Below, one piece after another: positions 55 through 7,354 of a stretch of 31,095 nucleotides of DNA. The position numbers and the translations under genes were made by a program. The notes beneath the pieces are model-generated. The model made no database searches, was not told the origin of the DNA, and saw nothing but the letters and a program-made list of their open reading frames with translations. Position 1 is the first letter of the stretch; each line of letters opens with the position of its first letter. Source of the stretch: a virus; the IMG/VR virus record IMGVR_UViG_3300046692_000202, positions 1 through 31,095 of that record, one strand, 5' to 3'.

Positions 55-753
55 TTATTGGGGCTTGTTTTCGGTCTGAGGGGGTTTTGCCTGGTCCCGA
101 GCCTGCATCTCCAGCAAAAGCTTATATGTTGCATCGCTCTGTGCTTTTGCATCGATAATCAGCTTTTCTGTTACTTGTTGCCGCTGAAGGGTGGATTGCC
201 CAGCGTCAAAAAAACCGGTCACCGAGCCTACGATTGTTGAATTGACACCCCAAATCCCAACAACCGTTGCCGCGGCAATAGCAAGTGTCGCCCAGCGTGC
301 ACTGCGGTTCGAGCTTTTCACCTCATCCAATTTTTTATCAAGTCGAACCTCAAATCCGTCAACGGTCTGAGTCATCAGCTTCACAGACGAACTCATCGTA
401 TCGAGTTTTGAATCGATGATCGCATCTCGATCCTCAAGACGTTTGTGCATTGCCTCAAATCGCTCGGTATAGAGCTTATCTCTTGCTTCCTGCTCCCGAC
501 GATACGATTCTGATCTCTTCTCCTCGGTTGACTCCATTCTGTCGATGCGTTTGTCCATCCGGCTTTCAATTGCGGATAAGGTCAGGCTCAATTCTTCGCG
601 CGTGATGTCATTCATGAACAGAGTATCTCTCGCAGAAGAAGGACTGTCATCCGTAGAGTTCGTATCGCTCTGTGGCGGCGCGCGAAACATTGGAGTGATC
701 TTTTCGAAATGGTCCCGTACGGCGTGCGGAGTTTCAAATTTACTCGGATTCAT
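55..753 (-). CDS. Membrane-anchored coiled-coil protein, unknown function
   Basis: A 232-residue protein, last gene of the leftward operon that starts with the repressor. Residues about 50-150 are highly charged (K/E/R/D rich) and read as a long coiled coil. Residues about 154-172 are hydrophobic (ATLAIAAATVVGIWGV) and look like one transmembrane segment. A second helical charged stretch (about 185-232) ends in a proline- and glutamine-rich tail. There is no signal peptide. The start overlaps the end of the upstream zinc-ribbon gene by 14 bases, suggesting translational coupling. Because it is co-directional with the repressor it is probably expressed in the lysogen, which makes a superinfection-exclusion or other lysogenic-conversion role possible, but that is inference. 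I do not recognise a named family. Confidence 0.8.
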   Translation of the reverse strand: MNPSKFETPHAVRDHFEKITPMFRAPPQSDTNSTDDSPSSARDTLFMNDITREELSLTLSAIESRMDKRIDRMESTEEKRSESYRREQEARDKLYTERFEAMHKRLEDRDAIIDSKLDTMSSSVKLMTQTVDGFEVRLDKKLDEVKSSNRSARWATLAIAAATVVGIWGVNSTIVGSVTGFFDAGQSTLQRQQVTEKLIIDAKAQSDATYKLLLEMQARDQAKPPQTENKPQ

Positions 754-2850: not shown

Positions 2851-3549
2851 ATGAACACGATCGTCGCTCCAAGCAATACGGTCACCATGTCGAGCCGTGA
2901 GATCGCCGACCTCACGGGCAAGCACCACCACCACGTTGTCCGCGACATCAAACGCAACCTTGCCGAGCTGAATATCGATGTATCCACTTTTGGATGTATC
3001 TACCGGGACGAGCGCAACCGCGCACAAACCGAATATTTCCTTGGTCACGACCTGGTCATGACCCTACTCACCGGTTACAGCACCCCGCTGCGCCACCGTG
3101 TCGTGACACGTTTGGGCGAACTCGAAAACGTGTCACGACATGTTGTCGCGGTTCCGCAAACTCTCCCTGAGGCCCTAAGGCTCGCAGCTGATCAGGCAGA
3201 ACAAAATCTTCAGCTGCAGGCCGTCATCCAAAAGCAGGCACCAAAGATCGAGGCGCTGAATCGCCTTGCCAATACTCATGGCTCCGTATGCATCACCAGC
3301 GCTGCCAAGCAGCTTGGGGTGGCGCCTCTACGGCTATTCAAGTGGCTGAGTGACAACCGTTGGATTTACCGCCGGACCAGCCACTCCAGTTGGTCTGCAT
3401 TCCAGCCTCGACTTTCGAGCGGTCTGCTCGAGCACAAGCTGGTGAAGGTCGGCGTCGACCGCGAAGAGCTCAAGGTTGTCGAGCAGGTCATGGTCACGCG
3501 CCGCGGTATCACCACCCTGGCCGAACAACTTCAAGGAAACTCGTTGTGA
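2851..3549 (+). CDS. Rha-family phage antirepressor with KilAC domain
   Basis: A 232-residue protein. Residues about 8-95 match the Rha (pRha/phage regulatory) fold: MSSREIADLTGKHHHHVVRD, then TEYFLGHDLVMTLLTGYS and RHRVVTRLGELE. Residues about 130-228 look like a KilAC/ANT DNA-binding domain (SAAKQLGVAPLRLFKWLSDN, RITTLAEQL-like ending). A charged linker joins them. In other phages Rha-KilAC proteins act as antirepressors or interfere with host functions during infection; the exact target here is unknown. The ATG is preceded by GAGGGG. The last four bases overlap a GTG start of the next gene (GTGA), so the two are probably translationally coupled. Confidence 0.88.
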   Translation: MNTIVAPSNTVTMSSREIADLTGKHHHHVVRDIKRNLAELNIDVSTFGCIYRDERNRAQTEYFLGHDLVMTLLTGYSTPLRHRVVTRLGELENVSRHVVAVPQTLPEALRLAADQAEQNLQLQAVIQKQAPKIEALNRLANTHGSVCITSAAKQLGVAPLRLFKWLSDNRWIYRRTSHSSWSAFQPRLSSGLLEHKLVKVGVDREELKVVEQVMVTRRGITTLAEQLQGNSL

Positions 3550-4346
3550 GCGTTCAAGCAATGTCCTGGGCGCTCTCTCTGCCCACCCAATCCCTGAAAG
3601 ACTCGAGCGCGCGCCATGTGCTGTTGTGCCTTGCCAACTACGCCGGCTCGAACGGCGCTGGTGCTTTCCCATCAGCTTCAACTTTGGCTCAAGACACCGG
3701 CCTGTCCGAGCGCACGGTCCGTTACAAGCTGGACGATCTGGAGAAGTTCGGGCTGATCCAGAAGGGTAACCAAGCAATCGCCGCCGTGCACATCGATCGT
3801 CATGACCGCCGTCCAGTCGTCTACGACCTTCAACTAGCGCGGGGTGCAAATCCTGCACCCCGTACAAAACGGGGTGCAGATGACGCAACGGGGTGCAACT
3901 CACAACAGAACGGGGTGCAGCCTGGAACAGAACGGGGTGCAGAGGCTGCACCCAATCCATCACTTAACCATCAAGGAACCGAAGAGCAGCAGCAGCGCGA
4001 GATTGATGATCTGGTTGCCCGGCAAGACCGGGCCGCCATCGAGGACCTGGATCACCGCCAGCGCTTCGCCATGTTCGCCGAGTGGCAGATCCCGGAAAAC
4101 TACATGGCCACCCAGCTGAAGATCGCCGGCCTACCAGGTGAGTCGATAACCGAGGAACTGCTTGCTGGCTTCATGGGCTTCTTCGTCGCCAAGTCATCGA
4201 CCCTCGATACTGCTGCGGGCTGGTGCTTTCGGCTGGCCAACTGGATTAAGCGTGACCGCGTGAAGTCCGCCGCCGCCGCTTCTGCTGACGGCTCAGACGA
4301 GTTTGATGACGACTGCACTGCGTGGATGAGGGAGGGCACCCAATGA
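3546..4346 (+). CDS. Replication initiator, winged-helix with DnaT-like C-terminus (O-like)
   Basis: A 266-residue protein, analogue of lambda O. Residues about 40-75 (PSASTLAQDTGLSERTVRYKLDDLEKFGLI) form a winged helix-turn-helix. Residues about 100-150 are a low-complexity linker encoded by a DNA repeat cluster. Residues about 165-240 (FAEWQIPENYMATQLKIAGL, FVAKSSTLDTAAGWCFRLANWIKRD) resemble the DnaT-type ssDNA-binding/primosome domain. I chose GTG at 3546, which overlaps the upstream stop and has AAGGAA 8-13 bases upstream; ATG at 3561 is the alternative. It is followed with an ATGA overlap by a P-like helicase loader. The gene likely contains the origin it recognises, as lambda O does. 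Confidence 0.85.
   Translation: MSVQAMSWALSLPTQSLKDSSARHVLLCLANYAGSNGAGAFPSASTLAQDTGLSERTVRYKLDDLEKFGLIQKGNQAIAAVHIDRHDRRPVVYDLQLARGANPAPRTKRGADDATGCNSQQNGVQPGTERGAEAAPNPSLNHQGTEEQQQREIDDLVARQDRAAIEDLDHRQRFAMFAEWQIPENYMATQLKIAGLPGESITEELLAGFMGFFVAKSSTLDTAAGWCFRLANWIKRDRVKSAAAASADGSDEFDDDCTAWMREGTQ
3840..3953. repeat. Iteron cluster, putative replication origin
   Basis: The 9-mer CGGGGTGCA occurs five times in direct orientation (3840-3848, 3870-3878, 3889-3897, 3911-3919, 3933-3941) and twice inverted (3854-3862 perfect; 3947-3953 seven bases). Direct copies are 19-30 bases apart, the last three at 22-base spacing, i.e. about two helical turns. The cluster lies within the linker of the initiator gene, exactly where lambda-type origins lie within O. 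It is the only repeat cluster of this density I see in the window. Confidence 0.75.
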
Positions 4347-5038
4347 AAACGGTATCCAACGTAGCAGCCCAAGCGATGACCAAAGCTCGCCACGGCGAAT
4401 TCATCGAGTCGCACTCCGAAGTGTCTGCTCAGGTACAGCAGGATCTGGCTCACGAGACGGGCAAGGTGATCAACCATTTGTTCCGCCAGCTACGATCAAT
4501 CAGGACTGCCTGGCACCAGGCGTGGCCGGACGCGAAGGCCTACAAGGAATCCAAAGCCACTTGGCTGAAGGCGTTCATTGAGAACGGTATTCGCACCCAG
4601 GAGCAGATCGATATCGGCCTGATCCGCTGCCGTGCCGAGCCTTCTGACTTCATCCCGAGCGTCGGCAAGTTCATACAGGGTTGCGTGCCTTCGCCTGAAA
4701 TGCTCAAGCCGCCGCTGCCAAGCGTTGAGGCTGCCTACAAGCAGGCTCTGCGCAACTGCCACCCGACCATGTACGGCGTAGCGAAGTGGTTTCACCCGGC
4801 CGTCTACCACGCAACGGCTGCGGCGGGTTTTAACAGCCTGCCGCTGCTCAGTCGGGAGTTGGGGCTGGCCAGTTTCGAAAAGCGCTATTTGGAGCAGGTC
4901 CGCAAGGTCTGGATGGGTGAGCTGTTGGCGCCTGTGCCGGTAGCTGAACTGCCGCCACCGTCCGAGCGCACTCCCGAAGTTGGCAACCAAGCGCTGGCCG
5001 CTCTACGGGCGATGCGTTCGGGAGGTGCCCGTGCCTGA
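4343..5038 (+). CDS. Replication protein P-like helicase loader
   Basis: A 231-residue protein of the lambda P type (PF06992). The central segment WHQAWPDAKAYKESKATWLKAF and the region FIPSVGKFIQGCVPS are typical of this family, as is HPTMYGVAKWFHPAVYHA in the C-terminal half. It would recruit the host DnaB helicase to the origin bound by the upstream initiator. The ATG at 4343 overlaps the initiator stop (ATGA) and has GGGAGGG at 4330-4336. An in-frame upstream ATG at 4322 lies inside the previous gene and lacks such a site. The C-terminus overlaps the next small gene by 8 bases. Confidence 0.88.
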   Translation: MKTVSNVAAQAMTKARHGEFIESHSEVSAQVQQDLAHETGKVINHLFRQLRSIRTAWHQAWPDAKAYKESKATWLKAFIENGIRTQEQIDIGLIRCRAEPSDFIPSVGKFIQGCVPSPEMLKPPLPSVEAAYKQALRNCHPTMYGVAKWFHPAVYHATAAAGFNSLPLLSRELGLASFEKRYLEQVRKVWMGELLAPVPVAELPPPSERTPEVGNQALAALRAMRSGGARA

Positions 5039-5643: not shown

Positions 5644-6071
5644 AGGCGCTTACGCTCAAACCGTTCGCTTCGAAACCGGTGCGCGCCAAATCCATCGACA
5701 GGGAAGGTCTCGAACAGGCCGCTTTGATGGCCGAACTCCGCGCCCGTATGCCAGCCGTTGCCGACCTGATTTATCACGTTCCGAACGGCGGTCATCGTCA
5801 CAAGGCAGTAGCGGCGAAGCTCAAGCAGCAGGGCGTGGTGGCGGGCATTCCTGACCTCGTCCTGACGATGGCCCGCGGCGGGTACTTCGGTCTGTACATC
5901 GAGTTCAAGGCCACCCCGCCGAATGACGCCGCAATCTCGGCCAGCCAGCACGAGCGCATCCGCAAGTTGAACGACCAGGGCTATCTCGCCGTGGTTTGCC
6001 GTGGGCACTTCGACGCGATGGAGCAGATCCGCGCCTACCTGCGTCTCGCTCCTACAGTGGTGGCAGCGTGA
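5640..6071 (+). CDS. VRR-NUC domain nuclease
   Basis: A 143-residue stand-alone VRR-NUC protein. The family's active-site residues are visible: E25 (EQAALM), HVPNGG at 46-51, GIPD72L and E88-F-K90 (YIEFKA), making a PD-(D/E)xK-type metal site. In other phages stand-alone VRR-NUC enzymes act on branched DNA and often replace RusA or endonuclease VII-like resolvases. Its position at the end of the replication/nin-like region fits a role in processing replication or recombination intermediates before packaging. It overlaps the upstream membrane peptide (ATGA) and ends at a GTGA overlap with the possible start of the integrase. Confidence 0.9.
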   Translation: MKALTLKPFASKPVRAKSIDREGLEQAALMAELRARMPAVADLIYHVPNGGHRHKAVAAKLKQQGVVAGIPDLVLTMARGGYFGLYIEFKATPPNDAAISASQHERIRKLNDQGYLAVVCRGHFDAMEQIRAYLRLAPTVVAA

Positions 6072-6073
6072 CT

Positions 6074-7354
6074 ATGACCGTGGCCTTCTCCGATGCCGAG
6101 CTGCGCCGTCGCGCTGAGGACCCTGCCGCTGTGTTGATGCGTGACCCTCGGCACCCGGGGCTGTATTTCCGCTTCACCGAAGCGCGGCCGCGTGGAACGT
6201 GGAGCCTGGTGGTGCGCAAGAAGTGGAACCGGATCGGCGCTTATCCCGACTTGTCGGCGAAGGCTGTTTTGGCCGCGCTGCCCGATCTTCGTATGCGGCT
6301 GGGCACTGATCCGGATGCAGGGGCAGCTGTATCGCCCTGGGCAACGCTGGGTGAGTTGCTGAGGTGGTACGCCGACCGAATGAGCCGTGACCGCAGCCTG
6401 TCAGACGAGCGCAAGGCCACCGGGAAGTCTGCAATTGCCCGTCACCTGATACCGCGTGTTGGCGATCTGGCACTGGTCGATGTACGTCACGGCACGCTCG
6501 ACACCCAGCTGATGTGGCCGCTGCAGGAGACACTGTCACTCGAATTCGTGCGGTTGATCTTCGGTCTCTTGGTGGTTGCCTGCCGCCAGGCTCACACGTT
6601 GGGCCTGATCCCGGCCAACCCTATGACAGGCATCAAGTTCAGCGACTTCTCCAAGACCAAGATCAAGGCTAAACCGGCGCGCCTGCGTGGCGTGCAAATC
6701 GAACATCTGTTGACGCAGCTGCATGCGCTGTTTGATGCCGACCAGCAGCCCGCAATGCTCGCGCTGATGATGCTCTGCCACGGCACCCGGATAGGCGAAA
6801 CCCGCAAAGCTCAGTGGTCACACATCAGTATCGCCGAGCGCACCTGGTATCTGCCGGTGGGCAACACGAAGACCCGCGTCGAGCACTCGCTCCCACTGAC
6901 CGAGCAGGTGAGCGCCCTGTTGATGGGATACCGCGCTCACCAGAAAGCATGCGGGTACGAGGGTCAGTTCCTTTTTCCATCCAAAAACGGGAAGGGCATG
7001 AGCAAGGCGCAGGCCAGCGCCGTGTTCACCGGACTGGGGAAGGGCGAGTGGAGCAGTCACGACTTGCGCAAGTTGGCCAGGACTGGATGGGCAGACCTCG
7101 GGGTCGACTTCCTGATTGGGGAGATGCTGATCAACCACGCGATGGGCCACAACGTGCAGGCCTACATCCACACCACGGTTGAGGAGCGTAAGCGCTCAGC
7201 CCTCGAACTGTGGCACGGCCATTTAGACCTGAAGGGGTTTTACCTGATTCATGGGTTGGAGGAAGGTAGAAACGAAAATTCGGGTAATGCCCTGCAAGCC
7301 ACGGAACACAAGGCCTGCGAGGCCCTTCAAGAATCAACCATAGGCGAGGTTTAA
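6074..7354 (+). CDS. Tyrosine recombinase (phage integrase) in mid-operon
   Basis: A 426-residue tyrosine recombinase. An N-terminal arm-binding-like part (about 1-80) is followed by a core-binding domain (about 88-195) and a catalytic domain (about 205-390). The catalytic set is complete: R239 (GTRIGE), K266 (NTKTR), H329-xx-R332 (SHDLRK), H355 (INHAMG) and Y364 (AYIH). ATG 6074 is used; GTG at 6068 overlaps the VRR-NUC stop and is an alternative. It lies within the early operon between a nuclease and the late regulator rather than at a prophage end. Either it is the prophage integrase with attP elsewhere, or a second recombinase acting on phage DNA (for example dimer resolution). No att-like repeat is visible next to it. 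Confidence 0.92.
   Translation: MTVAFSDAELRRRAEDPAAVLMRDPRHPGLYFRFTEARPRGTWSLVVRKKWNRIGAYPDLSAKAVLAALPDLRMRLGTDPDAGAAVSPWATLGELLRWYADRMSRDRSLSDERKATGKSAIARHLIPRVGDLALVDVRHGTLDTQLMWPLQETLSLEFVRLIFGLLVVACRQAHTLGLIPANPMTGIKFSDFSKTKIKAKPARLRGVQIEHLLTQLHALFDADQQPAMLALMMLCHGTRIGETRKAQWSHISIAERTWYLPVGNTKTRVEHSLPLTEQVSALLMGYRAHQKACGYEGQFLFPSKNGKGMSKAQASAVFTGLGKGEWSSHDLRKLARTGWADLGVDFLIGEMLINHAMGHNVQAYIHTTVEERKRSALELWHGHLDLKGFYLIHGLEEGRNENSGNALQATEHKACEALQESTIGEV

Follow-up and report, generated by a model that had tools for sequence, protein, structure and literature searches.

The DNA analysed here, referred to as the window, is a stretch of 31,095 nucleotides from an IMG/VR virus record (IMGVR_UViG_3300046692_000202) that represents a temperate phage, with the genes of a lambdoid early region read from the sequence. 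The host is probably Pseudomonas, to judge from the nearest named relatives of the window. An O-like replication initiator gene is followed directly by a gene for a P-like helicase loader, and the two genes share a four-base overlap (ATGA). By profile searches, an antirepressor and a CII-like activator are encoded upstream of the initiator gene, and a CI-like repressor on the opposite strand. Judged from these assignments, the neighbourhood of replication and regulator genes is a lambdoid early region. The antirepressor gene (2851-3549), which adjoins the initiator gene on its upstream side, consists of a Rha domain and a KilAC domain. The integrase gene (5996-7354) is located between the replication genes and the terminase, away from the repressor region.

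Table 1 Features of the initiator locus, with nucleotide positions numbered along the window.
Feature	Location	Strand	Description
O-like replication initiator gene	3546-4346	+	GTG start, 266 aa; profile matches, predicted model, fold match
Lambda-P-like helicase loader gene	4343-5038	+	Phage_lambda_P, E 2e-28; phrog_109 P-like helicase loader, E 1e-52
Winged-helix HTH domain	initiator residues 1-98		
Linker encoding the DNA element	initiator residues 99-150		
DnaT-like ssDNA-binding domain	initiator residues about 168-247		
Iteron array	3840-3953	+	CGGGGTGCA copies; positions conserved in 80 relatives
Tandem 11-mers	3954-3986	+	AATCCATCACT / TAACCATCAAG / GAACCGAAGAG; degenerate (G/T)AACC(A/G)TC(A/C)NN
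Whole DNA-constrained element (proposed origin)	3840-3995	+	codons 99-150; synonymous diversity about 0.05

A sequence-only reading of the window had placed a repeat array within an initiator gene, and the identity of this gene is confirmed by its profile matches. Among phage families, phrog_1032 (replication initiation protein) matches the product best, over nearly its full length (residues 1-252, E 2.6e-74). The only Pfam profiles above cut-off are HTH_36, at residues 21-71 (E 3e-11), and DnaT (PF17948), at residues 174-244 (E 1.5e-8, 34.6 bits against a cut-off of 25). At E ≤ 0.1, there was no match to the lambda O family (Phage_rep_O) or to the Rep_3/TrfA-type initiators of iteron plasmids, and an RP-C N-terminal match was seen below threshold only. 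In the AlphaFold model of the initiator, residues 100-152 have a pLDDT under 50 and lie between two folded domains. This segment coincides with the constrained DNA described below (codons 99-150), so that the linker is predicted to be disordered where the DNA is constrained. A fold search with the C-terminal domain gave the ssDNA-binding domain of DnaT as best matches (6aeq and 4ou6, Z 8.5-8.6). The DnaT-ssDNA complex 4ou6 aligned with a Z of 8.5 and an rmsd of 2.3 over 69 residues; this Z is middling, but the DnaT profile match in Pfam points the same way. The N-terminal domain gave general winged-helix matches only and resembles MarR/CRP-type regulators. A sequence search of the PDB with the initiator family profile gave no match. 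Proteins with the same N-terminal HTH are encoded on plasmids of Streptomyces, Rhodococcus, Gordonia, Kineococcus and Thermobispora (H107, H113-H130), and the initiator family may therefore extend to plasmids.

The iteron array is composed of copies of the unit CGGGGTGCA. Five direct copies start at 3840, 3870, 3889, 3911 and 3933 on the plus strand, and one inverted copy occupies 3854-3862, which makes six exact copies. The earlier count of five direct and two inverted copies thus stands for the direct copies and for one of the inverted ones; the second inverted copy, TGCACCC at 3947-3953, is partial and matches 7 of 9 bases. The direct copies are separated, start to start, by 30, 19, 22 and 22 bp, and the exact 22-base spacing noticed earlier is confirmed for the three copies at 3889, 3911 and 3933. 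Each end of the array is bounded by an inverted pair, with the direct steps of 19, 22 and 22 bp between them. When the whole window was shuffled 100 times with its dinucleotide composition kept, exact matches averaged 0.39 and never exceeded 3, against the six observed; when the protein was recoded synonymously 5000 times, they averaged 0.09, with a maximum of 2. In the other 114-base stretches of the 31-kb window, no 9-mer occurs three times. The direct copies fall in all three reading frames and for this reason encode, in order, RGA, RGA, TGC, GVQ and RGA. Across 80 relatives from viruses, which are 73-88% identical, the positions of the copies are kept with hardly any loss: single copies are missing in a few, and none of the 80 keeps the linker while losing the repeats.

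Synonymous variation was compared in 62 dereplicated relatives. It is about eightfold lower over exactly codons 99-150 and recovers on both sides. The synonymous diversity is 0.27-0.48 over codons 1-98, 0.048 over codons 99-136, 0.055 over codons 137-150 and 0.34-0.50 from codon 151 on. At the immediate flanks, it is 0.32 (codons 81-98) and 0.34 (codons 151-165). Third positions within the iterons have a diversity of 0.005, compared with 0.371 in the upstream N-terminal codons. From this profile, the constrained DNA corresponds to 3840-3995. The sequence-only reading, which ended its element at 3953, had stopped short of the last part of the constrained DNA and had overlooked the 11-bp repeat next to the array. 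As a cause of the constraint, an antisense ORF that overlaps the gene on the minus strand (3334-3963) was rejected, because segment 3546-3840, which also lies under this ORF, has normal synonymous diversity, the trough starting at 3840, and because the trough continues beyond the ORF start at 3963. A structured RNA was rejected, as the element had no match in Rfam. A terminator was also rejected: there is one minus-strand hairpin-plus-T match, at 3935-3953, which the last iteron pair forms, and such matches are fewer than in shuffled sequences.

The 11-mers adjoin the array on its 3' side. Across the family, their consensus is that given in Table 1, with spacings of 10-12 bp and with all three reading frames in use. 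In 42 non-redundant genes, picked by protein homology alone, pairs of AACC 11 bp apart were observed 40 times against 3.9 expected from synonymous recoding, and pairs 22 bp apart 14 times against 2.5. The exact pattern AACC-N7-AACC is absent from 15 of these 42 genes, so that the 11-mer element is widespread without being universal. Viral DNA was also searched blindly for three exact 11-mer units, a pattern that the degenerate 11-mers of the window would escape; this returned 119 stretches, compared with 31 for the reversed pattern. Among the matches listed, 57 of the 72 ORFs that hold 11-mers match phrog_1032 and 54 match HTH_36, while only one or two of 10 control ORFs match replication families. 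One reversed-pattern control ORF (L515) also matches the replication initiation family phrog_6643. An 8-mer repeated at least 4 times within 150 bases is found upstream of the 11-mers in 50 of 77 matches and downstream in 1 of 80; for the reversed pattern, the same criterion gave 1/29 upstream and 1/30 downstream. The iteron-like units upstream of these blind matches are highly varied, and the 11-mer therefore outlasts changes of the iteron. A scan of a genome collection for three 11-mers was noisy, with many Bacteroidetes and archaeal matches that resemble unrelated tandem repeats, and was used only for range and for additional family members. Enteric and Vibrio phages have a 12-bp-spaced variant, GAACCAGTCA or close to it, behind different iterons (mEp460, L543; RothD, L547; SI5, L549; Vibrio D72, L541). 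In Burkholderia phage Bcep176 (L548), gene 11 (1132-1938) has GGAACAGTCCCAAA repeats and then units of GAACAGTAG; this may be a diverged version of the design in which AACAG replaces AACC. A peptide of the form NR/NH-xx-TV/TI-x-EPS recurs in O-like initiators (L280, L294, L295, L323 and most blind matches). It is the 11-bp unit read in three frames, and hence is not to be mistaken for a protein motif.

The 11-mer tract is only mildly unstable. At 36 bp, it is about the least stable duplex near the array, at the 95th percentile of the window for instability and the 99.5th of segment 3000-5200; at 45 bp, it is at the 76th percentile of the window, with 51% GC. Segment 3880-3999 has an AT skew of 0.52 (99.5th percentile), which corresponds to an A-rich strand bias.

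Relatives carry other repeat units, and the whole array switches together from one lineage to another. The unit is CGGGGTGTCA in L147, L152 and L154, GGGGTGAAC in Arthrobacter phages, CGGGGTGACA in Gordonia phage DatBoi, GGCGCA in L173 and GGGGTCAGAA in Pam5, with further units elsewhere. A comparison of 85 dereplicated genes showed that iterons are more alike where the HTHs are more identical (r 0.57, Mantel p 0.0005), with hardly any such relation to identity of the C-termini (0.16); the partial correlations are 0.55 for the HTH and 0.02 for the C-terminus. The expectation that repeat unit and HTH vary together was thus borne out. Part of this correlation is physical linkage, because the HTH and the iterons are neighbours in the gene. 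Within this region, repeated 6-mers correlate with HTH identity at 0.66 and non-repeated ones at 0.49. Gene pairs whose HTHs are 50-70% identical have an overlap of 0.24 for repeated and 0.09 for non-repeated 6-mers. As judged from these correlations, the repeat unit tracks the N-terminal DNA-binding domain and not the C-terminal domain, partly by linkage. Natural swaps are seen in the relatives of Bifidobacterium phage Bbif-1 (L087, L173-L176). Their C-termini are 89-96% identical, while the HTHs are 32-50% identical between the three groups L087, L173-L175 and L176, and the arrays differ. Bbif-1 itself (L087) has 11 copies of GTGCA, L173-L175 have 6-7 copies of GCGCA and lack GTGCA, and L176 has 12 copies of GTGCA in a context different from that of the other groups. 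Furthermore, the change of GTGCA to GTGTCA coincides twice, in separate lineages, with Ser in place of Arg in the recognition helix (SER to SES), between the window type and L152 (64% HTH identity) and between L326 and L280 (68%). However, L289 and L455 carry the Ser and depart from the GTGTCA pattern. The two events are suggestive of a link between recognition helix and unit, and are not proof of it.

Taken together, segment 3840-3995 is very probably a phage replication origin located inside its own initiator gene in the manner of lambda. The gene identities, the near-invariant array in 80 relatives, the tracking of unit and HTH and the adjacent least stable duplex all support this interpretation, which had been put forward for the array alone. 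In the proposed mechanism, the N-terminal winged-helix domain would bind the CGGGGTGCA iterons, as suggested by covariation. The assembled initiator complex would then melt the adjacent 11-mer tract, which is probably a strand-opening element. The DnaT-like C-terminal domain and the P-like loader, from the families to which they belong, would place host DnaB on the opened strand. The same design appears general in the hundreds of relatives compared: a variable iteron array, whose unit tracks the HTH, comes first, and an 11-bp repeat comes after it that hardly changes even between phages of distant hosts.

The repeats could instead serve as an intragenic operator, through which the initiator or another regulator controls transcription of the O/P genes while replication starts elsewhere. 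The resemblance of the winged-helix domain to MarR/CRP-type regulators would suit such a role, and iteron-type initiators are often autoregulators too. We nevertheless regard an operator as improbable: seven sites at fixed spacing and a conserved low-stability 11-mer tract within a coding region are better suited to an origin, no other iteron-like array is present in the window, which may be less than the whole phage, and no sigma-70-like promoter was found in segment 1800-4500, although this is a weak test. Selection on a repetitive linker peptide, rather than on DNA, would account for the conservation of the linker among close relatives, and it has next to no probability. One DNA unit is read three ways, as RGA, TGC and GVQ, third positions are frozen, the linker is predicted to be disordered, and the peptides change wholesale with the repeat unit. 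The reading frames and the synonymous-site data thus led us to reject selection at the protein level; together with the recoding expectation (0.09 against 6 observed), they uphold the earlier view that the repeats are selected as DNA.

Within the origin interpretation, the 11-mers may have a role other than unwinding, either in helicase loading, as a signal, or as double-strand sites to which some widely shared factor of the host or the phage binds. This is a variant of the origin explanation, with which its probability overlaps, and we consider it less likely than not. The 11-mers persist alongside differing HTHs and C-terminal domains, so that neither variable domain obviously reads them, and the unit, with its invariant CC, is not particularly AT-rich. 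On the other hand, the position at the edge of the iterons, the tandem layout and the lowest local stability match known unwinding elements. Returning to strand opening, we put forward tentatively, at somewhat less than even chances, that the AACC(A/G)TC 11-mer serves phages generally as a code for strand opening. It would be recognised in a single step, either by a host factor or by some conserved segment of the initiator, and this step would be common to O-like initiators of phages from Proteobacteria to Actinobacteria, with each lineage coupling its own iteron/HTH pair to it. If so, the 11-mer would play in phages the part of the DnaA-trio or of the plasmid 13-mers, and the recurring NRxxTVxEPS peptide would be explained as a DNA code.

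The layout of an origin within the initiator gene is already known from lambda; the 11-mer component is apparently undescribed. In the full-text papers searched, from which most subscription journals are missing, neither the AACC 11-mer nor a covariation of iterons and HTH was described for the O-like family, which is weak evidence of absence. HTH-tracking iterons followed by a near-constant 11-bp repeat give a rule by which sequence can point to the origins of many phages and prophages that are still uncharacterised. The domain swaps and the repeated Arg-to-Ser differences in the recognition helix are natural experiments on change of winged-helix specificity. What recognises the constant 11-mer across phyla is a question that can be tested.

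Unlike iteron plasmids, the window has an initiator with no Rep-family match above threshold, and iteron plasmid origins are usually located outside rep. Iterons that adjoin tandem short repeats are shared with the origins of RK2/TrfA iteron plasmids, whose 13-mers open as the 11-mers would here (PMC4980987, PMC5043065). In lambda, the initiator binds the iterons, the tract beside them opens, and P brings DnaB (PMC5043065, PMC7466680); a strand asymmetry is reported for the tract, which the A-rich strand bias of the window recalls (PMC5043065). As in the lambda origin within O (J02459; PMC5043065, PMC7466680), several iterons are located inside the initiator coding sequence, between the N-terminal DNA-binding and C-terminal parts. 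Both have direct iterons near 20 bp with dyad symmetry, a strand-asymmetric tract directly 3' of them, which opens easily in lambda and may do so here, and a P-like helicase loader next. They differ in the initiator family, which here combines HTH_36 with a DnaT-like domain, in the iteron, and in the tract, which consists of 11-bp AACC repeats in the window and is strongly A+T-rich in lambda; the chain of AACC 11-mers was not found at the lambda origin. The C-terminal domain has the ssDNA-binding fold of DnaT, the primosomal protein of E. coli and Salmonella (6aeq, 4ou6), but here it is part of the same protein as an iteron-type HTH, and its partner is a P-like loader. The design is also close to that of the O-like initiators of phrog_1032, phrog_678, phrog_391 and phrog_270, for example those of Pseudomonas phages JBD68 and MD8, Arthrobacter phage Andrew and Bordetella phage PHB09. 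These lineages have a homologous N-terminal domain, internal iterons and 3' AACC repeats, and differ from one another in the iteron unit and in the C-terminal domain.
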